Shown here: piece by piece, positions 16,659 through 50,750 of the stretch
Position numbering within the stretch: the first letter of the stretch is position 1
How the letters are laid out: every line of letters begins with the position of its first letter
NCBI GenBank assembly: GCA_007745835.1
Contig: CP036424.1
Coordinates: forward strand, 4,203,968 to 4,267,967
Reading direction: 5' to 3'
Length of the DNA stretch: 64,000 bases
From: Planctomycetes bacterium MalM25
Lineage (GTDB): Bacteria; Planctomycetota; Planctomycetia; Pirellulales; Lacipirellulaceae
Translations under genes and position numbers: made by a program
Notes under the pieces: generated by a model
The model's database searches: none
What the model saw: the letters and a program-made list of their open reading frames with translations, nothing else
What the model was told of the DNA's origin: nothing

Positions 16659-17369
16659 TCACTCCTTCGCCTCGGGGGATTCGACGTACCAGGTCGTCGA
16701 TCCGGGCAGCGGGGTCCACATCGGCACGCAGACGCCCGCGTGCTTGAGCTTGTCGCCCGCCCAGCTGTTGCAGGTGTACAGCGCGCTGTAGGAACCCTTG
16801 GCCGGGTAGAAGTTGTCGTAGTCGCCGTACGACTCCCCGGCGATCGGCTCGGCGTCGGCGGAGAGGCCGTCCGCGATCGCGTCGCAAAGGTGGCGGTACG
16901 CCTCCTCAGGAAGGTCGATGCGTGTGTAGCCCTCAGAACCTTCTGGATCGATGGTCGCCTGCACGTGGATCACCGTGCCGCTCGGCATGCAGAGCGCCTT
17001 CACCGCGGTGCTCGCTTTCAGGTCGTTCCAAGTGGGCGTGTCGAGGTAGAAGCCGCGGTCTCCCCAGCCGATCGCGTAGTGCGTCGCCCAATCGATCGAC
17101 TCGGGGAACGTGTCGGCGGGGAAACGCTCGGACCAATCCCAGTCGCCGCGACGAATGGGCAGCACCAAGTCGGTATGCACCGGGCTCGAGGCGACATAGA
17201 TCGCCACGCCCTTCGGATCGGATCGGAATCCCCGGTTCACCGGCCACATCCCGACCAGCACGAACAGCCCGTAGAGCAAGAACGGCCCCAGCACGATGCC
17301 GGAGGTCGCCAACAGGGGTCGGCGGAACCGGCGGAGTGTCGGGCGGGGCGGTTCGGGCTCGTCGGTCAC
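16659..17369 (-). CDS. DUF2459 (TIGR02117 family) membrane-anchored protein
   Basis: 236 residues with one N-terminal transmembrane helix (about 18-42) and an exported domain. Family landmarks are SSPVHTDLVLPI, IGWGDRGFYLDTPTW, and near the C-terminus FYPAKGSYSALYTCNSWAGDKL followed by MWTPLPG. This matches the DUF2459/TIGR02117 family, which has a putative cysteine-based active site (Cys in TCN). Function is not established. The start overlaps the stop of the upstream GH57 gene by 4 nt, so the two are translationally coupled. Confidence 0.85.
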   Translation of the reverse strand: MTDEPEPPRPTLRRFRRPLLATSGIVLGPFLLYGLFVLVGMWPVNRGFRSDPKGVAIYVASSPVHTDLVLPIRRGDWDWSERFPADTFPESIDWATHYAIGWGDRGFYLDTPTWNDLKASTAVKALCMPSGTVIHVQATIDPEGSEGYTRIDLPEEAYRHLCDAIADGLSADAEPIAGESYGDYDNFYPAKGSYSALYTCNSWAGDKLKHAGVCVPMWTPLPGSTTWYVESPEAKE

Positions 17370-19564: not shown

Positions 19565-19798
19565 CGTGGAGACGCGGTTCGAGGTCGGTAAATCGGAGAA
19601 ACTGTAGGGGCAGCGGTAGCCGCTCTTCCGTCATCGACGGACGTTCGGCGCCAGCATGACCGCGATCGTACCGAAACTCACCGAGACCCGTCCACGCGTT
19701 GCGGTCGGTAAGGTCGCAGGAATCGAACAACTTGTGCCTTCCAAGCCGGACGAACGCTAGCGTCACCCGCTCCGGGAACCCTTGCCCAAACGCCAGAG

Positions 19799-20683
19799 TC
19801 ACCCCAGCGTGGCGAGCCGCTCGGCCAGCCGCTGGGCGGCCTTCTCGGGGGGCGTCGAGCTGATCCACAGGCCGGTCGCGAGTTCGAAACCGGCGATCGA
19901 GGAGTCCCGGGGCACGATCTCCAGCCACCAGCGGCCCGCCAACGCCTCGCCGAACGAGGCGGGGGGCGTCTGCAGGACCAGGTTGAACGCCGACAGGTCG
20001 AGCGCCACGAGCACGCGTCGCAGCAAGCCGGCGAAACGGGAAGCCGCCGACCGGTCCTCCGCCAACCGCGCAAACGGGACCCCCTCGTCCGACCGGAGCC
20101 AAGCCTCGGGGCCGCGCGGCGCGGCGGGGCTTTCGACGAGGTAGCCCCCTTCTGACCAGACGGTGCGCGGGCTCGCGTTCGCCCCGTCGGCGAGGCGACG
20201 CCACATGGCGGCGACCGGTTGGGGCGCCGCCGGCAGGGCGAGCACCTGGCTGTGCACGTGCCGGAGCGAAGCCCCCGCCGCCGGGCCTTCATTCTTGAAG
20301 AGGAGCGTGTAGTCGAACGCGGCGTTTGCCGACCAATGGCCCACCCGTCGCGACCACTCCGTGACGGCCCCGATCGCCTCGTCTTCGGTCAGATCGACGT
20401 AGCGCTGCGCATGGCGTGGCGACTCGATCACCACCTCGTGCGCGCCCTCGTCGTCGGCGACCGCCGGATAGCGATTCGGAACGACCCGGGTCAACCAAGC
20501 GGCGTCGTCGCCTTCGACCCGGTCGACCTCCGTCGGCGTGCGGTCTTCCGCGCCGGCGCAGAACGGGCAGCCGTCCGTCTCCCCCGACTTCGCGAAATCG
20601 TTGGGCCGCTCCGCCCGCTGTGTTGCGAGCCGCACCCGGCGATCGGTCAGCGGGTCGTGGAGCCAGGACAGGAGAGTGGGCAA
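19799..20683 (-). CDS. GalT-like sugar-1-phosphate nucleotidylyltransferase (HIT superfamily)
   Basis: 294 residues. The zinc-type motif CPFC is at 39-42 and the catalytic HIT triad HVHSQ is at 142-146, in place of the HPHGQ of classic GalT. VPNRYPA and HEVVIESP are also family landmarks. The protein is shorter than E. coli GalT (about 348), as in many bacterial homologues found next to glycogen synthase. The reaction may be uridylyl or adenylyl transfer to galactose- or glucose-1-phosphate. The start is TTG at 20683; no better in-frame start is visible. It lies 97 nt after glgA on the same strand. Confidence 0.85.
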   Translation of the reverse strand: MPTLLSWLHDPLTDRRVRLATQRAERPNDFAKSGETDGCPFCAGAEDRTPTEVDRVEGDDAAWLTRVVPNRYPAVADDEGAHEVVIESPRHAQRYVDLTEDEAIGAVTEWSRRVGHWSANAAFDYTLLFKNEGPAAGASLRHVHSQVLALPAAPQPVAAMWRRLADGANASPRTVWSEGGYLVESPAAPRGPEAWLRSDEGVPFARLAEDRSAASRFAGLLRRVLVALDLSAFNLVLQTPPASFGEALAGRWWLEIVPRDSSIAGFELATGLWISSTPPEKAAQRLAERLATLG

Positions 20684-20780
20684 GGGGCACGAGGTGATGG
20701 GGCGGTCCGACTTGGCGGTAGCTTACGCTCCCGGAGCGAGGCTGCCGACCGCCCCTGTGCGTAGGGTCGATCTAACGCCC

Positions 20781-22268
20781 TCACGCCATTGCCGGGGACG
20801 AGGCTTTCGCGAGAGTCCGCTCGTAGAGTTCGACGTATTGCCGGGCGCTGCGGTCCCACGACCAGTCCTGACGCATGCCGGTCTCGACCAGCTGGCGCCA
20901 GACGTCGGGCTGATGGTAGGCCCGTGTCGCGCGGTCGATCGCCATCGATAACGCGTACGACGAGGCGTCGGCGAACGAGAAGCCGTTGGCCGAGCCGTCG
21001 GCGAGGGTCGACTCGGTCGTGTTGGTGATCGTGTCGGCCAGGCCACCCGTCTCGCGGACGAGGGGGACCGTGCCGTACTTGAGGCTGTACATCTGGTTGA
21101 GCCCGCAGGGCTCGTAGCGGCTGGGCATGAGGAAGATGTCGGCGCCCGCCTCGATCTGGTGGGCCAGCTCGTTGCTGAACCCGACGCGGACCGCCACCCG
21201 GTCCGAGTGCTCCGCGGCAAGGCGTTGCATCATGTCCTCGTAGTGCGGCTCGCCCGTGCCGAGCAGCACCCACTGGGCGTCGAGCGACTGGGCGAGGCGC
21301 GGAAGCACCTCGGCGATCAGGTCGAAGCCCTTCTGGTCCGCGAGGCGTCCGACGCTCGCGAGGATCGGCGCGTCGGGACGGATGGGCAGGCCCATCGTCT
21401 CCTGCAGGGCCCGCTTGCAGGCCGCCTTGCCGTCGGAGTAGTTGTCCGCCGTGTAGTTCGCCGCGAGGTGCGGGTCGTGCTCGGGGTTCCACGCGCCGTA
21501 GTCGACGCCGTTCAGCACGCCCGCCAGGTCGTCCCGCCGATGATGGAGGACGCCTTCGAGCCCGCAGCTAAGCGGCGGAGACTGGATCTCCTCGGCGTAG
21601 CGCGGGCTGACGGTGCTGAGCGTGTCGGCGATCGACAGCCCCGCCTTCATGAAGTTGAGCTGGCCGTAGAACTCAAGCTCCTGCCAGTTGAAGTGCTCCC
21701 AGCCGAGCCCCGTGAGCTCCATGTCCCAGTGCCAGAAGGCGCCCTGGTAGGCGAGGTTGTGGATCGTGAAGAGCGTCGCGATCCGGGCGAGCGACGGCCG
21801 GTCGGCGTACAGCGAATTCAGGTAGGTGGGGATCAGGCCCGCCTGCCAGTCGTGGCAGTGGATCAAGTCGGTCTCGAGGCCGAGCAGATCAACCGCCTCG
21901 ATCACCGCGCGGTTGAAGAAGACGAACCGCTCGCAGTTATCGACGTAGTCGCCCGACGGCTCGCGGTAGAGCTCGGGGCGGTTGTAGTAGCCGTGCTGCT
22001 CGACGAGGTAAACCGGCACGTCGGTCCCGGGGAGCGTGCTCCGCAGGTACTCGCCGACAACCCGCTTGCTGCCAATCGGGATCTCGAAGCGGACCCCCGT
22101 CGGCTCGATCGGCTGGCCCGACTCGAGCGCCTGGCGGAAGGCGGGCAGGATGACCGTGGGCCGCACGCCGAGCTGGGTGAGCGCCCCGGGCAGGGCGCCG
22201 CACACGTCGCCCAGGCCGCCGGTCTTGCAGAAGGGCGTCGCCTCGGTGGTCGCGAAGAGGATGTTCAC
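20781..22268 (-). CDS. glgA: Glycogen synthase (GT5)
   Basis: The GTG at 22268 begins VNILFATTEATPFCKTGGLGDVCGALP, the conserved GlgA start with KTGGL binding the ADP-glucose phosphate. This start is preferred on homology over the ATG at 22319, which would add 17 residues. 495 residues. Later landmarks are HCHDWQAGLIP, YKQG-type segment SRYAEEI, VGRLADQKG and PSRYEPCGLNQMYSLKYGTVPLVRETGGL near the C-terminus, with the catalytic Glu in the last. The enzyme transfers glucose from a sugar nucleotide to the end of alpha-1,4-glucan. It heads the GlgA, GalT-like, GH57 set. Confidence 0.95.
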   Translation of the reverse strand: MNILFATTEATPFCKTGGLGDVCGALPGALTQLGVRPTVILPAFRQALESGQPIEPTGVRFEIPIGSKRVVGEYLRSTLPGTDVPVYLVEQHGYYNRPELYREPSGDYVDNCERFVFFNRAVIEAVDLLGLETDLIHCHDWQAGLIPTYLNSLYADRPSLARIATLFTIHNLAYQGAFWHWDMELTGLGWEHFNWQELEFYGQLNFMKAGLSIADTLSTVSPRYAEEIQSPPLSCGLEGVLHHRRDDLAGVLNGVDYGAWNPEHDPHLAANYTADNYSDGKAACKRALQETMGLPIRPDAPILASVGRLADQKGFDLIAEVLPRLAQSLDAQWVLLGTGEPHYEDMMQRLAAEHSDRVAVRVGFSNELAHQIEAGADIFLMPSRYEPCGLNQMYSLKYGTVPLVRETGGLADTITNTTESTLADGSANGFSFADASSYALSMAIDRATRAYHQPDVWRQLVETGMRQDWSWDRSARQYVELYERTLAKASSPAMA

Positions 22269-36799: not shown

Positions 36800-38179
36800 C
36801 TAGGTGTCGAATCGCGACTTGGGAATGGGGCGCCAAACGCTCGAGAACCGCGACGCCTCCGCCGCGTGGAGCACGTCGAGCGTCTCGCGGTCGAGCGTCA
36901 CGACGCGTCGGCGGAGCCAACCACTCGATTCTAGCACGTAGGCGGAGCCCGTCTGACCGATCCGCCAGCTGTGCGAGGCGAGGCCGGGGTGGGCCGTGAG
37001 GACCGCGTCCCACGGGATCGCGTCGTGCGTCACCCGCTCGGCGGAGCGGCACGCCTCGCAGTCGCCGCTGTGGCGGGCCGCGGGGCTCACGCTCAGGCCG
37101 CAACGGGGGCAGACCACGAGGCTCATCTTCAGCACCGGCTCACCGCTCGCGGCGCAAGGGCCCAAGTGCTCAGGCGACGCCAGCTTGCCCGATGCGGAAC
37201 AAGCCCGCAGTTCGCTGCTCAGCCGACGCTCCCCCGACACCTCGCACGCGGCGATCCCTTCGGCGGCGGCGATCACGCCCTCGGCGGTCGTCGCCAGGTG
37301 GAACGTCTCCACGCCCGTGTGCGGGCAGATGATCGGCGGCGCCTCGAGCGTCGCGGCCCAGCCCTCGAACGGCGCGTCGAGCGACTCGTCGCCGAACTCG
37401 AAACGCAACCGCCCCGTCGCCCGCTTCGCCCACACGATGGTCACCAGCGACTCGTCGCGATCGCCCTCGCGTCGGCGAGCCGAGGCGAGCATCCGGTCGC
37501 GCCGCCCCGCGTCGAGCCGCGGCGCCGGATCGTCGATCGGGGCGACGCGGTCGAGCCCGAGCCGCATGGCGAGCTCCGCCTCGATCGGTTCGCCCAACTC
37601 GTCGTAGTAGCGGTGCGTGACCGTCGGCGTCTCGCCCGAGGCGTCGAGCCTCGTCAGCCGCACGAGCGGCGTGTCTTCCAGGTGGCAGCCCGCCAGGTGG
37701 GCACGGCCGCCGTCAAGCGTGTACGCCTTGAACAGCCGGTGCGCGAAATCGTGCACCGCGGTCGGTTGCTCGATCGGTCGCGCCCTCGGCGGCGTGTCGC
37801 GCGCCGCGAGACGCTCAACCAGTTCGAGCACCACGTCGCTCGGCGATTCGCAAGTGAAGTCGTCCACCACCGTTTCGGGCGACGCCGCTTCCTTCGGCGC
37901 GCGGCGGCGGAACCAGCTGCGACGGATCGTCGAGTCGCTGCTGCGCCGGTTCTCTTCGGGAGGAGTCGGGTCGGCCGGCTCGAAGCGGTACGCCTTGCCG
38001 TCGAACGCCAGCCGCACGCCCAGCTCGTCCGCCGCCCACGCGGCTAGCGCGGTCCACGACTCGCCGACCGTCGCCCCGGGGCGCGGCGTCGTGAGGTCGT
38101 CGGTGGTGGCGGCGTTGGGCAAAACGAAAGGCTCGGCGGCGGGCGGCGTGCGGACGCCCGGCTCGGCCGCCCGCTTCAC
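36800..38179 (-). CDS. Unrecognised 459-residue protein with C-terminal zinc-ribbon cysteines
   Basis: Start GTG at 38179 overlaps the stop of the upstream methyltransferase (GTGA). No family was recognised. The N-terminal half is acidic and Arg-rich with no membrane segment (TALAAWAADELGVRLAFDGKAYRFEP). Around residues 300-400 come several Cys motifs: ICPHTG, ACEVSG, ACSASG, PCAASG, each a CxxSG-like unit, then VCPRCGLSV and GDCEACR. The repeated CxxSG units are unusual. The gene lies between a methyltransferase and a glycosyltransferase with overlapping or very short gaps, so it probably acts with them. Function unknown. Confidence 0.75.
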   Translation of the reverse strand: MKRAAEPGVRTPPAAEPFVLPNAATTDDLTTPRPGATVGESWTALAAWAADELGVRLAFDGKAYRFEPADPTPPEENRRSSDSTIRRSWFRRRAPKEAASPETVVDDFTCESPSDVVLELVERLAARDTPPRARPIEQPTAVHDFAHRLFKAYTLDGGRAHLAGCHLEDTPLVRLTRLDASGETPTVTHRYYDELGEPIEAELAMRLGLDRVAPIDDPAPRLDAGRRDRMLASARRREGDRDESLVTIVWAKRATGRLRFEFGDESLDAPFEGWAATLEAPPIICPHTGVETFHLATTAEGVIAAAEGIAACEVSGERRLSSELRACSASGKLASPEHLGPCAASGEPVLKMSLVVCPRCGLSVSPAARHSGDCEACRSAERVTHDAIPWDAVLTAHPGLASHSWRIGQTGSAYVLESSGWLRRRVVTLDRETLDVLHAAEASRFSSVWRPIPKSRFDT

Positions 38180-39003
38180 TTCTTACGGAGCACGTACACC
38201 ACGTCCTCGGTCTCGCCGTCGATCTCGATCGGCTCCTCCAAGTCGTAAGCGAAATCGTACACGGCGGCCACCTCGTAGGCACCGACTCTCTGAATCAGAT
38301 CGGCCATCTGGCGGGCCGTGTAGGTCCGAAAACCGGTCTGATCGACCAACCGGAACGACTTTGTGGGCGTGTAAACGTCGAAACTCATCCCAACCGTTTC
38401 AACCCGACGCCGACGGTCGATCCCCTCGCTCCACATGTGCGACACCACCGACAGCGCCCCCCGCCTAGCCGACCAGCTCTCCTCGTCCGCCTCGGGCTCC
38501 CCCTTGGTCGGCGTGAGGTGCAGGCCGAGCACGTAGACGCCCCCCGGCCGCAGCGCCTCGGCGACACACCGCAGGTGCCCCTCGGCCGCCTTCTCCGTGG
38601 GCAGGTGGCGGAAGCTGTTGATCGTGTTGAACGCCGCGTCGAAGGGCCGCTTGCCCACACCCTTCACCTTGGCGAAGTCGTCGAGCGCGAAGTCGCTCAT
38701 GTCGCCCACGACGGCCGACTTGGGCAAGCCCTGCCGCCCCAGCCGCTCGTTGCAGAACGCGACCGCCTTCGCGTTGAGATCGTTCCCGGCGACGACCCGC
38801 CCCGCCTTGCCGAAGCGGTACATCAACCGCCCCGTCCCGCAAGCGGGCTCCAAGAGCCGCTTCGCCTCCGCCCCCCGCGGCAGCTTGCCGTGCTTCGCGA
38901 ACACGGCCGTGAGAAAGTCGAACTCCGCCTTCCAATCCGACCCGAAGACGAGGTCGTAGTACTTCGGGTAGTCGTACAGGTTGCCGGGGATGACGTCGGG
39001 CAT
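38176..39003 (-). CDS. Class I SAM-dependent methyltransferase
   Basis: 275 residues from ATG at 39003. YDYPKYYDLVFGSDWKAE precedes motif I LLEPACGTGRLMYRF (about 50-64), then VAGNDLN, and LRPGGVYVLGLHL. This is the small-molecule methyltransferase type (Methyltransf_25-like); the substrate is unknown. It is the first gene of an operon with the 459-residue protein (4-nt overlap) and the glycosyltransferase, which suggests modification of a glycan or secondary metabolite; inference. Confidence 0.88.
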   Translation of the reverse strand: MPDVIPGNLYDYPKYYDLVFGSDWKAEFDFLTAVFAKHGKLPRGAEAKRLLEPACGTGRLMYRFGKAGRVVAGNDLNAKAVAFCNERLGRQGLPKSAVVGDMSDFALDDFAKVKGVGKRPFDAAFNTINSFRHLPTEKAAEGHLRCVAEALRPGGVYVLGLHLTPTKGEPEADEESWSARRGALSVVSHMWSEGIDRRRRVETVGMSFDVYTPTKSFRLVDQTGFRTYTARQMADLIQRVGAYEVAAVYDFAYDLEEPIEIDGETEDVVYVLRKK

Positions 39004-39947: not shown

Positions 39948-40475
39948 ATGTCCGAAGAAACCCCAGAATCCCTCGAAGCCAAGCTCGCCAAGCCGACGCG
40001 CACGATGCAGATCGTCGTGGCGGCCATGATCGTCGTGCCGCTCATCTTTGCGGGGGTGGTGCTCGTGATCGGGGCGCAGGGGCCGCAGGACCCGGCGCCG
40101 ATCCAGGGGGAGATGCCCGCGCGGCGGGGGGGCGAGGTCGTCGGCCACCTGGCGCTCGTCGTCGGGCTCTTCTGCCTCTTCATCCAGAGCGTCATGCAGA
40201 AGTTCGTCACCAAGCAGGCGGTCCAGAACCTCGCCGTGCAGGCGATGGGCGAGCCGGATCGGCTCGGCGAGGCGTACCTGACCGGCCTCGTCGTCAGCGG
40301 CGCGATCAACGAGATGGCCGCGTTCCTGAATCTGATCGCCTACATGAGCAGCCAGTCGGTCTACAACCTCGGCATGGCGTTGCTGCTGGTCGCCTCGACC
40401 GCCATCAAGATGCCGACCGTGAAGAAGGTCGCCGCCTGGGCGCGGGCGACGGCGGAGTCGTTGCGGGGGGAGTGA
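39948..40475 (+). CDS. Small membrane protein, unknown function
   Basis: 175 residues from ATG at 39948. After a charged start (MSEETPESLEAKLAKP) come hydrophobic segments at about 20-42, 65-82, 112-130 and 135-153. The spacer between the first two has ARRGGEVVGHLAL. No family motif was recognised. It is alone, between the GYF/TM2 gene and a run of palindromic repeats. High-GC codon use like the bulk of the window supports a real gene. Confidence 0.7.
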   Translation: MSEETPESLEAKLAKPTRTMQIVVAAMIVVPLIFAGVVLVIGAQGPQDPAPIQGEMPARRGGEVVGHLALVVGLFCLFIQSVMQKFVTKQAVQNLAVQAMGEPDRLGEAYLTGLVVSGAINEMAAFLNLIAYMSSQSVYNLGMALLLVASTAIKMPTVKKVAAWARATAESLRGE

Positions 40476-40664: not shown

Positions 40665-40694
40665 GGCCGTCGTTTCTTCGTTTCTTTGTGGTTC
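40665..40694 (+). repeat. Solo arm copy of the 42057-42176 inverted repeat
   Basis: GGCCGTCGTTTCTTCGTTTC followed by TTTGTGGTTC matches the right arm of the element at 42151-42180 (GGCCGTCGTTCCTTGGTTCC, then TTCGTGGTTC) in the same orientation, with four mismatches in 30 nt. The matching left arm is not evident here. The two copies flank the GTPase gene 40710-42047 as direct repeats. Confidence 0.75.
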
Positions 40695-40709: not shown

Positions 40710-42047
40710 TCACTTCTCGGCGCCGTGCTTGTTGCGCGACAGCTTCTGACGGATCTCGTCTTTGAGGCGGTCGACGATCGACGCCTTGTCGAGGTTCTCG
40801 AGGATCTTCGTGACGACGCGCTTCGGCCCCCCCTCGCCCCACGAGCCCCCCTGCTCGAAGTAGTAGCGGGCCGCCTGGCCGACGAGGTAGCTGCCGTAGC
40901 CCGCGGCGGCGCCCTGGGGGATCGCGGTGAGGACCGTGCTGCCGCCGAAGGTGACGCCCTTAAAGAACGACGAGCCGGCGCTGACCAGCAGCTCGCCCAG
41001 CACGAGCCAGCCCGCCGCCTTCGTGATGGCGAGCACCAGATCGCGAGCGTTCTCGGTGGTGATCGGGATGCCGTACACGCCGGCGAGGGTGGCGACCATC
41101 GCGACGTCGACCGCCACGCCCCCCGCCACGTCGGCCACGGCCCACGGGTTCATGGCGACCGCCAGCGCCTTCGCGCCGGCGTAGCTCCAAACGACTTGGT
41201 CGGCCCGGTTGGAACGCATCCGCACCCGCAGCGCGGCGACGCGGTCGCTGCGATCGGCGGCGTACATCGCCGCGTTGAGGGCGACGAGCGTTTTCCCCTC
41301 GTCGACAAGCAGCTCGAGCACCCGGGCGCGGACGCCCTCGATGTTGGGCTCGGGCTGGCGCCACTCGCTGCGTGTCGAGCCGTCGGGCTGTTCGATCAGG
41401 TACTCGGTCTCGCGCGGGTCGGCCGACGCGAAGACGACGTTCTCCTCCCCGCCAACGAGCTTCGTCACGCGTTCGGACGTGAGCGACCGCTTCAGGTCGG
41501 CCAGCTCGTCCTCGGTGTAGAGGTCGATCTTATTGACGACCAGCAGGATCGGCTTGTGCAGCGAGGCGATCTGCTCCAGCGCGGAGAACTCGGTCTCGTT
41601 CAGGTCGCTGTCGGTCACCAAGAGGACCAGGTCGGCCCGCTCGGCCGCGTCGCGGGCCATGTCGGCGCGCTGCTCGCCGTCGACCTCGTTGAGCCCCGGC
41701 GTGTCGACCAGCACGAGGCCCGATTCCTCGAGCCCCGGCGTCACGGTGGCGGGCGCCTCCCAATCGAGCCGCCAGACCTCCTTGGTCCACCCGCCGCGGA
41801 CGCTCACGCCGGCCACGTCGCGCCCCGCGAGGGCGTTGATCAGGGCGCTCTTGCCGGTGCTGATCTCGCCGAACACGGCGATCTCGACCCGCTCGTGCTT
41901 GAGCTTGTCGGCCAGGTCGCGCAGCTCCCGCAGCTCGGCGATCAGCGCGTCGCGCTCGGCCGGGTCGCACCCCTCGATCTGCGCAATCGCCTGCTCCACC
42001 CCGGCGAGGGCGGCTTCGACGTCGGCGTTGGGGGGCGTGTTGGTCAT
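40710..42047 (-). CDS. Dynamin-type GTPase with C-terminal membrane domain
   Basis: 445 residues. G1 is GEISTGKS (60-67), G3 DTPG (115-118) and G4 NKID (172-175); the DTPGLNEVDG segment is typical of dynamin-like/DUF697-linked GTPases. An N-terminal helical stretch (10-55) precedes the GTPase domain. After about residue 290 come helical hydrophobic stretches (NPWAVADVAGGVAVDVAMVA and others) that would enter the membrane. It follows the second GTPase gene after 131 nt. Both together suggest GTP-driven membrane remodelling or a stress response linked to the MoxR set; inference from family and context. Confidence 0.85.
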   Translation of the reverse strand: MTNTPPNADVEAALAGVEQAIAQIEGCDPAERDALIAELRELRDLADKLKHERVEIAVFGEISTGKSALINALAGRDVAGVSVRGGWTKEVWRLDWEAPATVTPGLEESGLVLVDTPGLNEVDGEQRADMARDAAERADLVLLVTDSDLNETEFSALEQIASLHKPILLVVNKIDLYTEDELADLKRSLTSERVTKLVGGEENVVFASADPRETEYLIEQPDGSTRSEWRQPEPNIEGVRARVLELLVDEGKTLVALNAAMYAADRSDRVAALRVRMRSNRADQVVWSYAGAKALAVAMNPWAVADVAGGVAVDVAMVATLAGVYGIPITTENARDLVLAITKAAGWLVLGELLVSAGSSFFKGVTFGGSTVLTAIPQGAAAGYGSYLVGQAARYYFEQGGSWGEGGPKRVVTKILENLDKASIVDRLKDEIRQKLSRNKHGAEK

Positions 42048-42056
42048 TCAGTTAAA

Positions 42057-42176
42057 CACGAAGGAACGAAGAAACGACGGCCACCTCGTCGGCATGCAAT
42101 GGGACGGCTGAAGTTCTTAGTTTGGCTTCAAGACTCTACCCCACCAAGTTGGCCGTCGTTCCTTGGTTCCTTCGTG
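42057..42176. repeat. Inverted repeat with 26-nt arms between the two GTPase genes
   Basis: Left arm CACGAAGGAACGAAGAAACG + ACGGCC (42057-42082); right arm GGCCGTCGTTCCTTGGTTCC + TTCGTG (42151-42176). They pair with two mismatches over 26 nt, around a 68-nt loop. Each arm is itself a degenerate GAAGAAACG-type tandem word. A related solo arm is at 40665-40694. Confidence 0.85.
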
Positions 42177-42178
42177 GT

Positions 42179-43741
42179 TCATTCTTTCTCAGCCCCACTC
42201 AGCTTCTCGCGCCCGCGGGCGACCAGTTTACGCAGTTCTTCCGCGGAGGTGACCACGGCCCACTCTTGGCGGGCCAGTTCCGCGAGGCCGCCGGGCGGGG
42301 GCTGCATCTCGGCGCGGTAGTACGCCTTGAAGACGCGGCCGATCCAGCGGGCGACGATCGCCTGCACCAGGCCCTGCAGCAAGCCGCCCGCGATCCAGCC
42401 GACGCCCGGGATCGTCTTCAGCAGCGAGCCGACCGCCGACCCCAGGGCGGGCGCCGCGGCGGAGGCGCCGAGCATCGCCACGAGGTTCTTGCCGAGCTGC
42501 GCGAGCATCTCGACGACCGAGTCGGCGTCGACCTTCTGCTTGTACACGCCCGCCAGGTCGAGGGCCATCTTCACCAGCACGCCGCTGCCGATCGCCAGGT
42601 CCAACAGCGGCACCGGGTTCGCCGCCGCGGCGCCGCCGGCGGCCCACATGTAGCGATCGATGAGGCGGTCCGCCTCGGCGTCGAGCGTCGCGAGAACGCG
42701 CTCTTTCGCGCCGTCGACGAGTCCGCGCGACTGCATCAGCAGGTTCGCCAGCAAGAGGTCACCCCCCTCGCGATCAACGATCCCCATCAGCCGCTCGGCC
42801 AGGGGCGAGATGTCGGGTGGCACGGTCGCTTCGCCCTTGGTCTCGGTCCCGTCAGCGGCGACGCGGATCACGGGGCGCACCGTCTCGCGCGATCGGACCG
42901 CCACCACGTCGGCCCCCGCCACGTGGCCGGAGACCTGCTCTTGGAGTTGGGCGATCAGCTCTTCTTTCTGGCGGGCATCGTACCAGTCCTCTTTGTTGAG
43001 GCAGACGACGATCCGCTTCTCCATCTGCGCGAGGCGTTCGAGCAGCTCGTGCTCGTATGCCTTGAGCGGGCCGTCGACGACGAACAGCACGAGGTCGGCG
43101 TCCTGCGCGGCCTCGGCGGCGATCGCCGCGCGGCCTTCGCCGCGCACCTCGGCGAGGCCGGGCGTGTCGATCAGCGAGACGCTGTCCGAGTCGGGCCACG
43201 GCACGCTCTGCTCGGTCGAGGTCGTCCCGCCGACGACGTTCGACTGGAACGCCTCGCGACCAGCGAGCGCGTTGAGCAGCGAGCTCTTGCCGCTGGAGAT
43301 CGTGCCGAAGGCGACGATCTCCAGGCGCCGCGTCTCGTGCTTCGCTTCGAGTTCCGCGAGCGCACGCTCGACCTCATCGCGCAGCGCCGAGGTCGCCTCG
43401 AGCCCGGTTGCGTAGTCACGGCTCGCTTGGAGGTTCTCGCCGAGTTCCGCGTTGCGGTCGCGCTTCGAGAGTTCGCTCGGGTTCTTGACCCGGCGGGCCT
43501 CGGTCCTCTGCTTCAGGAGCGTATTGCCCCACATCCGCCAAGCGCCCCACGCCGCGAGCCCGCCCAGCACCACCACGCCGAGGCCGACCACGGCGAGGTA
43601 CAGCTTGCCGGTCCAGGACTCGGCGCCGCCCGCCGCCTGGTAGCCGGCGGCGATCTGCGGCGGCACGGTCAGCAGCAGGTACCCGATCGCCGCGAGGGCG
43701 ACGAGCGCGAGCAGTCCGCGACTGGGTTTGCGAGGGAACAC
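42179..43741 (-). CDS. Dynamin-type GTPase with N- and C-terminal membrane segments
   Basis: 520 residues from GTG at 43741. Two transmembrane helices (about 9-28 and 48-68) lead to a helical linker and the GTPase: GTISSGKS (146-153), DTPG (192-195), NKED (249-252). The C-terminal third has glycine-rich hydrophobic helices (LLDLAIGSGVLVKMALDLAG, ending with IPGVGWIAGGLLQGLVQAIVARW), the arrangement of DUF697-like domains. It differs from the neighbouring GTPase by the N-terminal anchors. The start codon lies directly beside the left arm of an inverted repeat, so the original start is not certain. Confidence 0.85.
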   Translation of the reverse strand: MFPRKPSRGLLALVALAAIGYLLLTVPPQIAAGYQAAGGAESWTGKLYLAVVGLGVVVLGGLAAWGAWRMWGNTLLKQRTEARRVKNPSELSKRDRNAELGENLQASRDYATGLEATSALRDEVERALAELEAKHETRRLEIVAFGTISSGKSSLLNALAGREAFQSNVVGGTTSTEQSVPWPDSDSVSLIDTPGLAEVRGEGRAAIAAEAAQDADLVLFVVDGPLKAYEHELLERLAQMEKRIVVCLNKEDWYDARQKEELIAQLQEQVSGHVAGADVVAVRSRETVRPVIRVAADGTETKGEATVPPDISPLAERLMGIVDREGGDLLLANLLMQSRGLVDGAKERVLATLDAEADRLIDRYMWAAGGAAAANPVPLLDLAIGSGVLVKMALDLAGVYKQKVDADSVVEMLAQLGKNLVAMLGASAAAPALGSAVGSLLKTIPGVGWIAGGLLQGLVQAIVARWIGRVFKAYYRAEMQPPPGGLAELARQEWAVVTSAEELRKLVARGREKLSGAEKE

Positions 43742-43745
43742 GAAC

Positions 43746-43903
43746 GAAGTGGGAATGGGGAATGGGGAAGTGGGAGTATCGTAGCAGAGCCGTGTTAGCG
43801 GGGAGCGAGGGGCCCGAAAGCTTAGCCCACCGCGGGCGACTCTCTGACATTCGTGGCTCGGGGTCCGATCTTTCCCACTTCCTCATTCCCACTTCCAACT
43901 TCG
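43746..43903. repeat. Inverted repeat built of GGGAATGGGGAA words
   Basis: Left arm GAAGTGGGAATGGGGAATGG + GGAAGTGGGA (43746-43775) and right arm TCCCACTTCCTCATTCCCAC + TTCCAACTTCG (43873-43903), imperfectly complementary over about 30 nt with a 97-nt loop. It fills the spacer between the VWA gene and the larger GTPase gene. Confidence 0.8.
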
Positions 43904-46198
43904 TCACGGCATCCCGGCCCCGCGCCGCAGGAGCCACTCGGCCGTCATCAATGCCGCGAAGACCAGCAGCACGGGCCACGTGTCGTAGAGCGTCGTCCGC
44001 GAAACGACCTCGCGGCGCTCGTCGGGCTCTTGCGAAGCGAGCTCCGCCAGCAGCGTGGGCAGCTCTTCGAGCGCCAGCGTGCGGCCCCCGTCTGCTTCGG
44101 TCGCGCGGGCGAGCCGCGAGAGCGTGTCGGGCTCGGCGCCGGGGCGTTCGAGCTCGAGATCGCGGCGGGGAACAAGGAAGCGCGACGCGGCCTCGCCGAT
44201 CGGCTCCTCGCCACGGTAGGCGGCGACCTCGATCGTGTAATCGCCCGGCCGTGCTGTGTCGAGGAAGACGCCCGGCGCGCGGACCGCGCCGGCGGGGAGG
44301 GGCAGTTCGACGGCGACGCCATCGGGCCGGATGACGCGGGCCTCGTAGCGGAGCGAGTCGACCGCGTTAGGGGCGTCCGCCTCCGCCAGCCGCACGCCCG
44401 CCGTCAGGTCGAGGCGCGACCCGGCCGGCAGCCGCCGCGACGCGAGGTCGAGCGTGACCGTGCTGTTCGGGTCGTCGTCCTTCTTGGCAAGCCAGAGCAT
44501 CACCTGCCGCCAGAACTGCTGGTGCGCCAGCCGATGCCCTTCCATCACCCACCGCCAGGTCGAGTCGCCCGCGAACGCAACCACTCGGCCAAGCCCGGGT
44601 TGGCCGACCACGAGCAGCGGCTCGGGCCGCGGCCCTTCGGCGACGGCGATCACCTGGGCGTTCGGCTTGAGCGTCGCGCCGAGGCGGTTCGCGCCGTCGA
44701 GCGGAGGGAGCTCAGACCAGGGGTTTCCGCCCTCCTCGCTCGCGAGTTGCACGATCGGGTGCCGCCCCGCCAGGCCGGCCGCGGGTCGCATCCGCAGCGG
44801 GCCGGGCAAGTGGACGTCCTCGCGCACGGGGCCGTCCAGCGGCTGGCGTTCGGCGCGGCCCGGGGTGATCGGCAGCACGCCGCCGAGGGTGTCGCGGTGG
44901 CCGCCGGGGCCGAAGCTCTGGCGTCCGCCAAGCATCGCCAAGCCGACGCCCGACTCGACCAGCGCCGACAGCGCCCGCCACGACGCACGATTGAGGCCTT
45001 CCGCGTCCACGTTGTCGAGCACCACGACTTCCACCTGCCCCGGCACAAACCGCTTGGTCAGGTCGCGACGTGCCGGCTTGTAGTTGATGGGGATGCGTTC
45101 GATCACCAAGTCGGGCGACGCCGCGAGCGACGAACGAACAAACCGCTGCTCAAGCCCCGAGGCGCCGCCGACGCGCGTGGCGCCGGCGAGGTAGAGCACC
45201 CGCACGCCCCCCTCGCGGACCGTGACGAAGCTGCTGACCGCGTTGTTGTCGATGAGGGTCTCCCCCTCCAGCGGATCGATCGCCAGCGAGACCTTCCACT
45301 CGCCCGCGGCGGGGGGGGCGTAGCGGAGCGTGACCGGGTAGGCGCCGACGCCCGGGCGGACGACGACCTGCGCGGCGTCGACCGGCTCCAGGCGGCCCTC
45401 GGCGTCTTCCCAAAGGAGCTGCACGCGGACCGAGCGGTTCGGGAAACCGCCCACCCGCACGACGGCGCTCACGTCGAGCGGCGCGCCGGCGAACGCCGTG
45501 TCGCTGACCACCAGGTCGTCGAGCGCCACGTCGGGCCGGTCGGCCGCCGCCCGGTCGCCCACCGGCACGGCGTAGAACGGCGCGCCGTCGGCCGCCAGCG
45601 TCGCCGCGAGCGACAGGGGCGCCGCGTCGCGCGGGGGCGTGGCGCGCTGCGCGCCATCGCTCATCACCACGACGCCCGACAGGACGCCGTCGCTCCCCTC
45701 GCCGCGTGAGGCGTTGAGGGCGTCGGACAGGGCGGCGCCGATCGCTGTCTCCTCGCCGACCGGTCCCGCTTCCGGCCAAGCGAGCCGGCCCCCTTCCAGG
45801 GCGATCGGGCGGAGCGTTCGGTCGAACAGGAAAGGGCGGATGTCTTGCTTATCGGCCAGTCGGTTGAGCGCCGCGCTGCTCGAATCGAGCAACCGCCGCG
45901 TCGCGTCCCAGCGCGAATCGCCGTCGAGCGCGTCCTCGACCGTCATGCTCTGCGACGCGTCGAACAGCATCACCAGCGTCGGCCGCAGCAGCTCGGTGCG
46001 GACCCGGATCAGCGTGGGGCGGAGCCAGGCGAACAGCAGGGCGAGGACCGCCACGGTTCGCAGGATCTGCAAGATCCGCTGCTTGCCGGGCGACAGGCCG
46101 ATTGCGCGGGGGGGCAAGACCCACGGCGCGAGCAGCATCAGCGCAGCGACGATCGTCGTGAACCACGCGCCGCCGACCGGATCGAGGGTCCATTCCAT
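43904..46198 (-). CDS. VWA / glutamine amidotransferase-like membrane protein
   Basis: 764 residues. Two N-terminal transmembrane helices (about 12-30 and 45-60) are followed by a von Willebrand factor A domain with MIDAS sequence DASQS (80-84). The middle region has Ig-like beta segments (VRVQLLWEDAEGRLEPVDA). It then contains VVVLDNVDAEGL ... LVESGVGLAMLGGRQSFGPGG, the amidotransferase-like fold found in this planctomycete family. A final transmembrane helix (about 738-756, WPVLLVFAALMTAEWLL) ends the protein. It is coupled to the BatA-like gene (TGATG overlap). Role within MoxR systems is not known in detail. Confidence 0.88.
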   Translation of the reverse strand: MEWTLDPVGGAWFTTIVAALMLLAPWVLPPRAIGLSPGKQRILQILRTVAVLALLFAWLRPTLIRVRTELLRPTLVMLFDASQSMTVEDALDGDSRWDATRRLLDSSSAALNRLADKQDIRPFLFDRTLRPIALEGGRLAWPEAGPVGEETAIGAALSDALNASRGEGSDGVLSGVVVMSDGAQRATPPRDAAPLSLAATLAADGAPFYAVPVGDRAAADRPDVALDDLVVSDTAFAGAPLDVSAVVRVGGFPNRSVRVQLLWEDAEGRLEPVDAAQVVVRPGVGAYPVTLRYAPPAAGEWKVSLAIDPLEGETLIDNNAVSSFVTVREGGVRVLYLAGATRVGGASGLEQRFVRSSLAASPDLVIERIPINYKPARRDLTKRFVPGQVEVVVLDNVDAEGLNRASWRALSALVESGVGLAMLGGRQSFGPGGHRDTLGGVLPITPGRAERQPLDGPVREDVHLPGPLRMRPAAGLAGRHPIVQLASEEGGNPWSELPPLDGANRLGATLKPNAQVIAVAEGPRPEPLLVVGQPGLGRVVAFAGDSTWRWVMEGHRLAHQQFWRQVMLWLAKKDDDPNSTVTLDLASRRLPAGSRLDLTAGVRLAEADAPNAVDSLRYEARVIRPDGVAVELPLPAGAVRAPGVFLDTARPGDYTIEVAAYRGEEPIGEAASRFLVPRRDLELERPGAEPDTLSRLARATEADGGRTLALEELPTLLAELASQEPDERREVVSRTTLYDTWPVLLVFAALMTAEWLLRRGAGMP

Positions 46199-48360
46199 CA
46201 GGCGGCCGCCCCCTCGTTCGCTTCACCCTCGGCGTTGCGGTAGTAGCGGTTGCTGACCCACTGCTCGCCGATCAGGGCCGCCGCTGCCGCCAGCAGCACC
46301 CAGCCGTACAGCTCGCGGCCGACACGCCCCAGGTCGATCGCGGACGCGAGGGCCTCGCCCCCGCGGATCAGTTCGATCTCCCCGCCGCCGAGCGACTCGC
46401 GCAGCTCATCCACATCGACCCGTTGCAAACGCCCCGCGTCGGCGGCGAGGTTCACCACGAATCGGCGATCGACCTCGGCGCCCGCCTCGAGCCGGTACGC
46501 GCCCGGCCCGGTCGCCGAGGGGATCGACAGCTCGCCGCGTCCGGGCGGGACGGTCTGGCGGAGGGCGTCGCCGCCGGGGGTGCGGAGCACGTAGGCGGGC
46601 GTCTCGACGCCGGCGGGCAGCGGCACGACGACCGGCTCGCCGGCGGTGTAATCGAGGCGCGTCTCCGCGGCGCCGGTGAGGTAGTCGGACAACGACCTTG
46701 CGAGGAGGACAAAAGGCCACGGGTCGTCGCCGGTCGGCAGCAGGTTCCACGGGTCGGGCCCGTCGAGCCGATCGCTCACGCTCGTTGTCATCACGACGAC
46801 ACGCCCCCGGCCCAACTGTCGCTCGACGATCGCCGGCCCGCCGTCGGCGTAGCGGGCGACCACGGCGGCGCCCTCGACCGGCTCATCAAGCTCCCAACGC
46901 TGCAACACCGGGAACGCCTGCCAGAAGATCCTCTCCGCGTACGGCGCGAGGGGGCGAATCGCCGGGTGGCTGAACGAGGTCGGTTTCAGGTAGGTCTCGT
47001 CGCGCGAGCGCCAGACAAGCTTGGCGGGCAGCACGGTCTGGGCGTTCGGCGCGTTGAACGCGTCGAGCGTCGCCTCGCGACCCAGGAAGACCCCCACCCC
47101 TCCGCCCCCCGCGGCGACGTCGTACAGCTTGCTCCAGCCGCGGCCCCGCTCGACGGTCGATGGCGGGTCGAGCAGCACGACGGCGTCGTAATCAACGAAC
47201 GTCCGCCGCGCCCAGCCGTCGTAGGTGACCACCTCGGTCTCGAACCGCCGCACGGCGCCGGCGCGGGTGACCGCGGGGTCGATCGCGTAGCGATAGAAGA
47301 CGGCGTCCTCCTCGCGCGGCGCGGCGATCAGGATCGTGCGGGGGCGTCGCACCTCGACGGCGAAATGTCGCACGTCGTCCCCCGGCGAGGCGTCGCCGGC
47401 GACGACGCGGACGAAGCCGGTCGTGAAGCCCTCCTCGAGTCCGCTGACCTGGAAGTCGATCGGGCTGGTCGACTCGGGTTCGATCAGCCGCTCGTCGCGC
47501 TTGATCGGCCCGTTGTCGCCGTCGATCCAGAGCTGCACCGCGAGCGGCTTGGTCCACGCGCCGGTCCGGTGGAGCGTCGCGCTCAGGTCGAGCGGCTCAC
47601 CGACCGCGAGCGACTCGCTGCCCAAACGGAGGCTCTCGATCGCCGCGTTCCGAGGATCGGCGGCGCCGACGTCGACCAGCCGCAACGCCACGCCGGGGTG
47701 CGTTTCGAGGGCGGTCGCGACCTGCCGGCGTGTCGCTTCGTTCCAGGCGCCGACCGACAAGTCGGTGAAGACGTACGCCTCGCGGCGTGAGGCGGGCGTC
47801 TCAGCGAGACGGTCGATTGCGTCGCTCACCACGGCGCCGAGCGGGCGGGCCGCGGGCGACACGCGCATCCGTTCGACCCGCAGCGCGGCCGACGCCGGAT
47901 CGAGCCGCCCCGCCCCGCCGCCGGGCGAACGGTCGGCGAGCACCACGGGCGTGTCTTCGGGCAGGCGATCGAGCAGCGGCTCAATCATCTCTTGGGCCTC
48001 GTCGAGGCGCGACCGGTTGCGGCTCTCGTACGCGGCGTTCGGGCCGTTGTCGATCGCCAGCGCGATCGCGATCCCGACACCCGCGGGGCCCTCACCGGCG
48101 GGTCCGTCGCCTGCCGACGGCGGCTTGAGGAGGGGGCGCGCCAGGGCGGTGGCCAGCAGCGCGAGCAGCAGGCAGCGCAGCGCGAGCAGCACCCAGCGGC
48201 GCAGCTTCAGCTGGCTCTCGGTCTTGTGGCGGTTCCGCTTCAGCAACCTGAGCGCCGGGAACTCGACCCGCACCGGCTCACGCCGACGGCGCAAGTGCAG
48301 CGCGATCGGGATGCCGATCAGCAAGACGCCGGCGAGCAGGAATGGTGAGAGGAACGCCAT
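46198..48360 (-). CDS. BatA-like N-terminal double-transmembrane protein
   Basis: 720 residues. MAFLSPFLLAGVLLIGIPIALHL is the start of the BatA/TIGR02226 domain, followed by RREPVRVEFPALRLLKRNRHKTESQLKLRRW and a second helix (LLALRCLLLALLATALA). A large exported region follows with a degenerate VWA-like domain and a segment around residues 360-480 with AVVLLDPPSTVERG, also amidotransferase-like. The C-terminal helix LYGWVLLAAAAALIGEQW anchors the end. It belongs to the MoxR-DUF58 system. The spacer to DUF58 (128 nt) carries an inverted repeat. Confidence 0.88.
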   Translation of the reverse strand: MAFLSPFLLAGVLLIGIPIALHLRRRREPVRVEFPALRLLKRNRHKTESQLKLRRWVLLALRCLLLALLATALARPLLKPPSAGDGPAGEGPAGVGIAIALAIDNGPNAAYESRNRSRLDEAQEMIEPLLDRLPEDTPVVLADRSPGGGAGRLDPASAALRVERMRVSPAARPLGAVVSDAIDRLAETPASRREAYVFTDLSVGAWNEATRRQVATALETHPGVALRLVDVGAADPRNAAIESLRLGSESLAVGEPLDLSATLHRTGAWTKPLAVQLWIDGDNGPIKRDERLIEPESTSPIDFQVSGLEEGFTTGFVRVVAGDASPGDDVRHFAVEVRRPRTILIAAPREEDAVFYRYAIDPAVTRAGAVRRFETEVVTYDGWARRTFVDYDAVVLLDPPSTVERGRGWSKLYDVAAGGGGVGVFLGREATLDAFNAPNAQTVLPAKLVWRSRDETYLKPTSFSHPAIRPLAPYAERIFWQAFPVLQRWELDEPVEGAAVVARYADGGPAIVERQLGRGRVVVMTTSVSDRLDGPDPWNLLPTGDDPWPFVLLARSLSDYLTGAAETRLDYTAGEPVVVPLPAGVETPAYVLRTPGGDALRQTVPPGRGELSIPSATGPGAYRLEAGAEVDRRFVVNLAADAGRLQRVDVDELRESLGGGEIELIRGGEALASAIDLGRVGRELYGWVLLAAAAALIGEQWVSNRYYRNAEGEANEGAAA

Positions 48361-48488: not shown

Positions 48489-49412
48489 TCAACCGCGGCG
48501 GCGGCGTTGCACCAAATACTCCGTCAGTGCCCGGTCGAACGGCATCCCCGTGTCGAGCGGCACGTAGTCGACGCCCGACTCGGCGCACTCGCGGCGGTAG
48601 GTCTCTCGGAACGCCTCGACCGATTCGCGGTAGTCGGCGCGGAAGCCGTCGGCGTCGAGTTCCAGGCGCTCGCCCGTCTCGGGCTCCTCGAAGTCGGTCA
48701 GCCCGCGGAACGGGAACGTGACCTCCGCCTCGTCGAGCACATGAAACAGAATGACGTCGTGCCCGCCGTGCCGGAGGCGGCGGAGCGACTTGAGGACGGG
48801 CTCCTCGTCGGTGAGCAGGTCGCTGAAGACCATCACGAGGCTGCTGTGCCGCAGCATCGCGGCGAGCTGCGTGAGCCCCGCGGCGATGTCGGTCTCCCCC
48901 GCCGGCTTGAGGCCCGCGAGCAGGGAGAGGAGCGTCGCCAACTGGGTCCGCTTGCTCTTGGGCTGTAGCGAGTGCTTGATCTTCTCGTCGAACGCCACGA
49001 GGCCGACCGGGTCCTGCTGCCCGATCATCAGGTACGCCAGCGCCGCGGCGAGGCAGATCGAGTAGTCGAACTTGGTGAGGCCTTCCGTCCCCTTCCTCTT
49101 CGAGGACACGGGGTCGCCGCCGTACCCCATCGACCGGCTGAGGTCCATCGCCAGGTAGCCGGTGATGTTGGTCTCGGCCTCGAACTTCTTGACGTAGTAG
49201 CGGTCGGTCTTCGCGTAGGCGAGCCAGTCGATGTCCTTCGGGTCGTCCCCCTGCGCGTACTTGCGGTGCTCGGAGAACTCGACCGAGTAGCCGTGGAACG
49301 GGCTCGCGTGCAGCCCCTGCAGGTACCCCTTCACGATGAACTGCGCGCGCAGATCGAGCCGCTTGATCTGGCGGATGACGTCGGGCTTGAGGTAGCTCTC
49401 GGCAGCTGGCAT
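48489..49412 (-). CDS. DUF58 domain protein (MoxR partner)
   Basis: 307 residues. LQGLHASPFHGYSVEFSEHRKYAQGDDPKDIDWLAYAKTD holds the DUF58 signature GxSxEFxExRxYxxGDDxRxIDWxxxART. It is followed by a VWA-type MIDAS, DLSRS (90-94), and ATLLSLLAGLKPAGETD. DUF58 proteins work with MoxR ATPases, probably as the client-side partner. No membrane segment is seen. It lies 102 nt after moxR with an inverted repeat between. Confidence 0.93.
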   Translation of the reverse strand: MPAAESYLKPDVIRQIKRLDLRAQFIVKGYLQGLHASPFHGYSVEFSEHRKYAQGDDPKDIDWLAYAKTDRYYVKKFEAETNITGYLAMDLSRSMGYGGDPVSSKRKGTEGLTKFDYSICLAAALAYLMIGQQDPVGLVAFDEKIKHSLQPKSKRTQLATLLSLLAGLKPAGETDIAAGLTQLAAMLRHSSLVMVFSDLLTDEEPVLKSLRRLRHGGHDVILFHVLDEAEVTFPFRGLTDFEEPETGERLELDADGFRADYRESVEAFRETYRRECAESGVDYVPLDTGMPFDRALTEYLVQRRRRG

Positions 49413-49429
49413 GGACAGATAAGGAGATG

Positions 49430-49515
49430 GACAGGATCACAGGATTGAGCAGGATCGACCAGATCGTGTTGCACAGGCTTCATCCTGTCGATCTTGCCGA
49501 TCCTGTTATCCTGTC
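49430..49515. repeat. CAGGAT-rich inverted repeat between moxR and DUF58
   Basis: Left arm GACAGGATCACAGGATTGAG + CAGGATCGACCAGATCG (49430-49466) and right arm CATCCTGTCGATCTTGCCGA + TCCTGTTATCCTGTC (49481-49515). Each arm is made of CAGGAT words. The outer 8 nt pair exactly (GACAGGAT / ATCCTGTC). The moxR stop codon shares the last base of the right arm. Confidence 0.85.
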
Positions 49516-50549
49516 TAGTTACTGAACTTCGGGATCTCGGGCGTCGGCACGGTCTCCAATAACCGCCCGACGATGTCCTCGGTCGTCATCCCCTCGGCCT
49601 GCGCCTGGAAGTTGGCGCCGACGCGGTGACGTAAGACGGGCAGCGCGATCTTCTGCACGTCCTCGATCGCGACGCTGAAACGCCCGTCCATCGCGGCGAT
49701 CGCCTTGCCGCCTTGGATCAGGAACTGCCCGGCGCGGGGGCCGGCGCCCCAGTCGACCAGGTCGCGGACGAAGTCGGGCGCGTCGTCGGACTTGGGCCGC
49801 GTCGCGCGGACCAGTGCGGCGGCGTACTTGATCACGTACTCGCTCACGGCGACGCTCGTCACGAGCTTCTGCACGTTGAGGATCGCTTTGGTGCTGAGCA
49901 CCTTGCTGACCTCGGGACGCTCGCCCCGCGTGGTGGCCGCGAGGATCTGCTCCTCTTCGGCTTGGGTCGGGTAGTCGATCTTGATGTTGAACATGAACCG
50001 GTCGAGCTGCGCCTCGGGGAGCGGATAGGTCCCCTCCTGCTCGATCGGGTTCTGCGTTGCGATGGTGAAGAAGGGCTGCGGCAGGTCGTAGGTCGTCTGG
50101 CCGACGGTCACCTCGCGCTCCTGCATTGCTTGGAGGAGCGCGGCCTGGGTCTTCGGCGGGGTCCGGTTGATCTCGTCGGCGAGCAGCACGTTCGTGAAGA
50201 TCGGCCCCTCGACGAACTTGAAGTTCCGGCGGCCGGCGTCGTCCTCTTCCAGGACGTTGGTCCCCGTGATGTCCGACGGCATCAGGTCGGGCGTGAACTG
50301 CACGCGCTGGAACCGCAGGTCGAGGATCTGCGCGAGCGTGCTCACGAGGAGCGTCTTCGCCAGCCCCGGCACGCCTTCTAGCAGGCAGTGGCCGCGCGTG
50401 AAGATGGCGGCGAAGACCTGCTCGATCACCGCGTCCTGGCCGACGATGACCTTCTGCAACTCCTGCTGCATCACCCAGCGGTGCTGCGAAAACTCTTGCA
50501 GCACATCGCCCAGGTTGCGCGACTTGCCGGCGGTTGCCTCGGTGCTCAC
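49515..50549 (-). CDS. MoxR-type AAA+ ATPase
   Basis: 344 residues from GTG at 50549, which follows AGAAGAG. An ATG at 50636 in the same frame would add 29 residues that are encoded mostly by the inverted repeat upstream, so it is rejected. Walker A is GVPGLAKT (59-66); LADEINRTPPKTQAALLQAMQE is Walker B with sensor residues, and FFTIATQNPIEQEGTYPLPEAQLDRF is the MoxR signature. MoxR ATPases act as chaperones that activate partner VWA proteins. It heads the minus-strand array and is divergent from the DUF4159 gene. Confidence 0.95.
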   Translation of the reverse strand: MSTEATAGKSRNLGDVLQEFSQHRWVMQQELQKVIVGQDAVIEQVFAAIFTRGHCLLEGVPGLAKTLLVSTLAQILDLRFQRVQFTPDLMPSDITGTNVLEEDDAGRRNFKFVEGPIFTNVLLADEINRTPPKTQAALLQAMQEREVTVGQTTYDLPQPFFTIATQNPIEQEGTYPLPEAQLDRFMFNIKIDYPTQAEEEQILAATTRGERPEVSKVLSTKAILNVQKLVTSVAVSEYVIKYAAALVRATRPKSDDAPDFVRDLVDWGAGPRAGQFLIQGGKAIAAMDGRFSVAIEDVQKIALPVLRHRVGANFQAQAEGMTTEDIVGRLLETVPTPEIPKFSN

Positions 50550-50576
50550 GGCAGCTCTTCTCTCAGGGAAACGTTC

Positions 50577-50750
50577 GGAAGGGAGATAAGGGGACGATTG
50601 GGGATAAGGGGATGGCGTTATCTCAGGACGCGCCATGACGGCTGAAAAAGTTCAGTTCTTCAATAGAAGAGTAGAGCCCGTTCAGCGGTCTTGGTCCGGC
50701 CTGAGGAGGCGACATCCCCTTATCCCCAGGCATCCCCCGATCTCCCTTCC
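50577..50750. repeat. GGGGATAAGGGG-type inverted repeat upstream of moxR
   Basis: Left arm GGAAGGGAGATAAGGGGACG + ATTGGGGATAAGGGGATGGCG (50577-50617) and right arm GACATCCCCTTATCCCCAGG + CATCCCCCGATCTCCCTTCC (50711-50750), about 40 nt each, around a 93-nt loop. It covers most of the 266-nt region between the divergent moxR and DUF4159 starts, so the promoters must lie inside or beside it. Words related to it recur at 53192-53210 and 53492-53510. Confidence 0.85.

Follow-up and report, generated by a model that had tools for sequence, protein, structure and literature searches.

Gene content of the locus

The 64-kb window of Planctomycetes bacterium MalM25 DNA analysed here contains a run of six genes, all on the minus strand. 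In gene order, these encode a MoxR ATPase (49515-50636; Pfam AAA_3, E 8e-65), a DUF58 protein (48489-49412; Pfam, E 5e-47), a BatA-type protein with a two_anch/BatA N-terminus (46198-48360; profile match, E 7e-20), a VWA-like protein of 764 residues (43904-46198) and 2 GTPases that we call GTPase A (42179-43741; 520 residues, GTG start) and GTPase B (40710-42047; 445 residues, ATG start). Both GTPase genes are complete open reading frames, and the intergenic gaps from MoxR to GTPase B are 102, 128, -1, 162, and 131 nt. The preliminary description of this DNA had placed the GTPase genes downstream of a MoxR/DUF58/BatA/VWA set on the same strand, which is correct in order and coordinates. Its label for the set holds for MoxR, DUF58, and BatA, all identified by profile match, and less well for VWA: the 764-residue protein has 2 N-terminal hydrophobic helices and no Pfam match to a VWA domain, its likeness being confined to the DASQS metal-site motif. 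This protein is the last member of the MoxR set and stands outside the GTPase pair. Compared with MoxR-DUF58-BatA-VWA systems elsewhere, the neighbouring genes form an ordinary member, with the GTPases lying outside the conserved core.

On the minus strand, the 131-nt spacer between A and B (42048-42178) carries a long inverted repeat with a strong predicted RNA fold (z -6.8), and the 162 nt that separate the VWA-like gene from A (43742-43903) carry another (z -4.8). Inverted repeats flank the GTPase genes at 42055-42178, 43747-43894, and 40667-40692; an example is AACACGAAGGAACGAAGAAACGACGG with its complement approximately 70 nt away (RNA fold z -6.8). The genome contains approximately 25 related copies, many of them arranged in inverted pairs, while a reversed control pattern gave none. 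On the opposite strand, beyond GTPase B, 39948-40475 encodes a 175-residue membrane protein with 2 or 3 hydrophobic helices and no assigned family, which is conserved next to GTPase B in 6 loci only.

Domains and family of the GTPases

GTPase A consists of an N-terminal two-helix anchor, further helices, an Era-like G domain (approximately residues 139-285) and a DUF697 region (337-479); GTPase B has the G domain (approximately 53-235) and DUF697 (263-420). Scores for DUF697 (PF05128) are 78.9 bits for A and 110.6 bits for B against a curated cut-off of 27.7, and the combination of DUF697 with an Era-like G domain recurs in every orthologue (26/26 for A, 24/24 for B). We found no DUF697 protein in the MalM25 genome beyond these two. 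Motifs G1, G2 (Thr), G3, and G4 are invariant across the 26 A and 24 B orthologues, which bears out the earlier observation that both proteins keep G1, G3, and G4. AlphaFold2 models were of moderate quality (pLDDT 76 and 78, pTM 0.57 and 0.62), and the modelled G domains superpose on Era with Z-scores of 18.0-18.9 over 162-169 residues at 2.7-3.1 Å. Invariant motifs and predicted fold together place both proteins among the Era-like (TRAFAC) GTPases. The two had been described as different GTPases; at 33% identity over 304 residues, however, sequence comparison makes them paralogues.

The 2 additional N-terminal helices noted earlier for one of the proteins are a family-wide property of GTPase A: strong hydrophobic helices at residues 9-27 and 47-65 are conserved in the 26 orthologues, while the same hydrophobic-helix analysis gave no N-terminal anchor in GTPase B. 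The hairpin is followed by a basic stretch (on average 9.1 Lys and Arg versus 3.6 Asp and Glu in the orthologues), which predicts that both termini of the hairpin lie inside (N-in/C-in) and the G domain on the cytoplasmic side. The hydrophobic C-terminal helices reported for both proteins are present as well, with moderate hydrophobicity. A and B are probably membrane-associated GTPases.

The preliminary description called the proteins dynamin-type and left the choice between dynamin, EHD-like, and DUF697 families to a profile search. That search returned DUF697 with an Era-like G domain, and neither dynamin nor EHD. Both proteins do match Dynamin_N above its cut-off, but only profile stretches 1-30 and 97-166 are covered, and the model gives 69.3 bits for a Der-like double GTPase encoded at 964970 in the MalM25 genome, more than for either member of the pair (60 and 52 bits); the match is therefore non-discriminating, and we rejected membership of the dynamin superfamily. 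An EHD assignment was likewise rejected, as the pair had no EHD match in Pfam at E 0.01. Scores fall far from the cut-offs of LeoA/HP0731 (NF041922; 28.6 bits for A and 16.5 for B, cut-off 325) and DynA (NF052648; 27.2 and 19 bits, cut-off 1600), and no convincing canonical dynamin was found in the MalM25 genome outside the pair. As a statement of membership, the dynamin label is wrong. In the predicted model, residues 89-353 of GTPase A align over approximately 240 residues to Fzo1, mitofusin (Mfn1), and BDLP, loosely, at 6.0-7.7 Å, which makes a dynamin-like neck possible; the Z-scores of this alignment are tied with those for Era and plain translation GTPases, and this counts against a membrane-remodelling reading.

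The closest named family is that of cyanobacterial slr1306 (NF049994), to which A and B are, by profile score, relatives rather than members (162.4 and 128.7 bits, cut-off 490). The slr1306 profile matches all 26 A orthologues, at best with 1.6e-58 and nearly full length, and domain order is the same, with residues 73-476 of A matching profile positions 42-423 of 470. The families differ in that the scores are far under the cut-off and in that MalM25 has 2 diverged, co-inherited paralogues. A and B are thus best classified, on profile evidence, as Era-like GTPase-DUF697 proteins related to slr1306. YcjF/HI0043 (TIGR01620) shares the DUF697 membrane region, and the YcjF/YcjX system also has a two-gene arrangement. 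However, the match to TIGR01620 is weak, with 6/26 A orthologues reaching 1e-5, and YcjX, encoded with YcjF, is a DUF463 and not a DUF697 protein. The ycjXF genes are reported next to psp operons (PMC9239133).

A and B as a conserved unit

We next turn to a survey of 197 genomes of Pirellulales. GTPase A is present in 61 of these, every one of which also has GTPase B; a 62nd, incomplete genome has just a B-like match. Of the 58 genomes in which the arrangement could be decided, 53 have A and B side by side and 5 have them apart; in 3 more, contig ends prevent a decision. Since B accompanies A in all 61 genomes and adjoins it in 53/58, the pair forms a conserved unit. GTPase A lies directly upstream of B in 70/80 loci from named genomes, with an estimated median gap in these 70 of approximately 28 nt (50/70 at 60 nt or less). 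In one genome, the C-terminus of GTPase B is present once more, in truncated form, downstream of the pair (L056:16640-16996). Lacipirellulaceae genomes carry a single copy of the pair, conserved by vertical inheritance. A phylum-wide sample contained it in 4/294 genomes, one of which belongs to a different class, and 7 sampled DUF697 loci from other planctomycete groups had neither a GTPase B profile match nor a nearby MoxR set. Outside Lacipirellulaceae, we found no constant neighbour of the pair, the adjoining genes being lineage-specific.

These data bear on the main rival to a membrane-acting pair, namely that the GTPases regulate, as GTP-dependent switches, a transporter or complex in the membrane, acting on partner proteins and not on lipid. 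The G domain is of the Era type and not the extended dynamin type, and the closest named family is represented by slr1306, which is reported as a putative CO2-concentrating component (cited in PMC5472144). However, no transporter constantly adjoins the pair; the partner GTPase alone does. Nor, to our knowledge, are Pirellulales planctomycetes autotrophs with a CO2-concentrating mechanism. We regard the switch as an unlikely explanation, if one to be kept in mind.

Linkage to the MoxR gene set

The preliminary description raised the possibility that a combined GTPase and MoxR module shapes or repairs the invaginated membrane; taken as a single unit of the envelope, this would have the MoxR/VWA proteins activating or assembling the GTPases. 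The neighbourhood is not peculiar to MalM25: the VWA-like gene lies upstream of A, on the same strand and within approximately 8 kb, in 22 of the 29 genomes from Lacipirellulaceae that were informative, and both sets have predicted membrane anchors. In one more genome of the family, the VWA-like gene is inverted, 5.5 kb from B; in the remaining ones, it lies at 17, approximately 30 (2 genomes), 56, and 318 kb or on another contig, i.e., distances are graded after rearrangement, which argues against a module. The neighbourhood survey therefore gave linkage within the family and none beyond it, as no orthologous MoxR set was near the pair among informative loci outside Lacipirellulaceae. Conversely, the VWA-like gene was matched in 60/60 relatives (weakly in one fragmented assembly), and 19 of these, all within the order and outside the family, have it without the pair. 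The MoxR set and the pair thus occur independently across the order.

As a control, we used an unrelated methyltransferase gene downstream of B (38176-39003), which lies within 15 kb of B in 11/16 decidable genomes. Linkage of the VWA-like gene (23/29) does not differ from this (Fisher p = 0.48), so that co-occurrence and linkage of the MoxR set with the GTPases stay at the level of background synteny. Moreover, in 16 family loci the gene next upstream of A is divergently oriented and encodes a quinone oxidoreductase-like protein (e.g., L034:8118-9110); where both sets are present, it separates A from the MoxR set. This implies a separate promoter for the GTPases, an outcome that the preliminary description had itself named as speaking against its proposal. 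A sigma-70 promoter scan gave no sites, but such a scan is uninformative at this G+C content. The MalM25 genome, positions 43742-43903 included, has no close homologue of the oxidoreductase and distant ones only (best 35%), suggesting that the close spacing of the MoxR set and A in the window probably results from loss of that gene.

Independent occurrence, control-level retention, and the divergent gene led us to reject a single operon with MoxR. On this comparative evidence, the linkage looks like inherited gene order with a separate promoter, a neighbourhood and not a module. A common envelope module is very unlikely, although the data leave room for a weak functional link of the pair to MoxR.

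Two loci show other arrangements. At L151, a MoxR/DUF58/BatA-like set lies approximately 4 kb downstream of the pair, with identities of only 50/38/31%; given 6 DUF58 loci per genome, we estimate approximately 1 chance case per 50 loci and rejected this as an independent MoxR association. In Botrimarina hoheduenensis (L073), the pair is followed downstream by inverted BatA/VWA genes (16878-21325), and an rpoD-like sigma factor gene is directly upstream of GTPase A.

A candidate heterotypic membrane GTPase unit

Taking these data together, we tentatively favour a reading to which we give somewhat less than an even chance: A and B would be a heterotypic, slr1306-like DUF697 membrane GTPase unit, found in part of the Pirellulales and functionally apart from the MoxR set, whose A/B complex acts on the membrane. 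GTPase A would be held in the inner membrane by its N-terminal helical hairpin, with the G domain in the cytoplasm, and GTPase B would join it via contacts of the G domains, of the helical DUF697 regions, or of both. Driven by GTP binding and hydrolysis, the complex would assemble and disassemble, and it may tether, bend, or repair the membrane in the manner of heterotypic bacterial dynamin pairs. The evidence in hand consists of domain make-up, intact motifs, a conserved predicted anchor, strict co-occurrence, tight adjacency, and separability from MoxR. Against a unit stand the 5 genomes with A and B apart and the 131-nt gap with its hairpin in the window. We know of no molecular function for DUF697, which, together with the role put forward for slr1306, counts against remodelling.

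Hetero-oligomerisation and remodelling are suggested here by analogy. Bacterial dynamins are usually found in operon pairs (PMC6104087), and the heterotypic pair Campylobacter jejuni DLP1/DLP2 (PMC6104087) may serve as a model for A/B assembly; a similar action has been put forward for the Tandem A/B pairs of cyanobacteria (PMC5827413). C. jejuni DLP1/DLP2, Nostoc Tandem A/B, and LeoB/C likewise have 2 adjacent, diverged GTPase genes, helices flanking the G domain, and predicted membrane association. In contrast to these systems, A and B have an Era-like G domain without a dynamin middle region, DUF697 in place of a trunk, and an anchor in one partner only. A LeoBC/DynA-type role in defence, against phage or membrane damage, is highly improbable for the pair: the PADLOC LeoA/LeoBC models match both proteins (51.6-75.4 bits), but mainly through the G domain, and the pair is, unlike typical defence genes, single-copy and vertically inherited in the family.

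In the literature searched, which covered a minority of subscription papers, we found no description of a DUF697 GTPase pair and no paper with DUF697 in its title or abstract; one mention concerns DUF697 only as a PCR target. It is conceivable, though doubtful, that the pair represents an undescribed class, an Era-like plus DUF697 heterotypic remodelling pair by which Pirellulales would maintain or repair their invaginated inner membrane. The results also carry a caution, in that a MoxR neighbourhood common to one family may be plain inherited gene order. DUF697 proteins are widespread, occurring in E. coli, cyanobacteria, and others, and the present pair, strictly co-inherited and anchored through one partner only, comes from bacteria whose inner membranes are complex; it would make it possible to test cleanly whether DUF697 GTPases act as heteromeric membrane machines.
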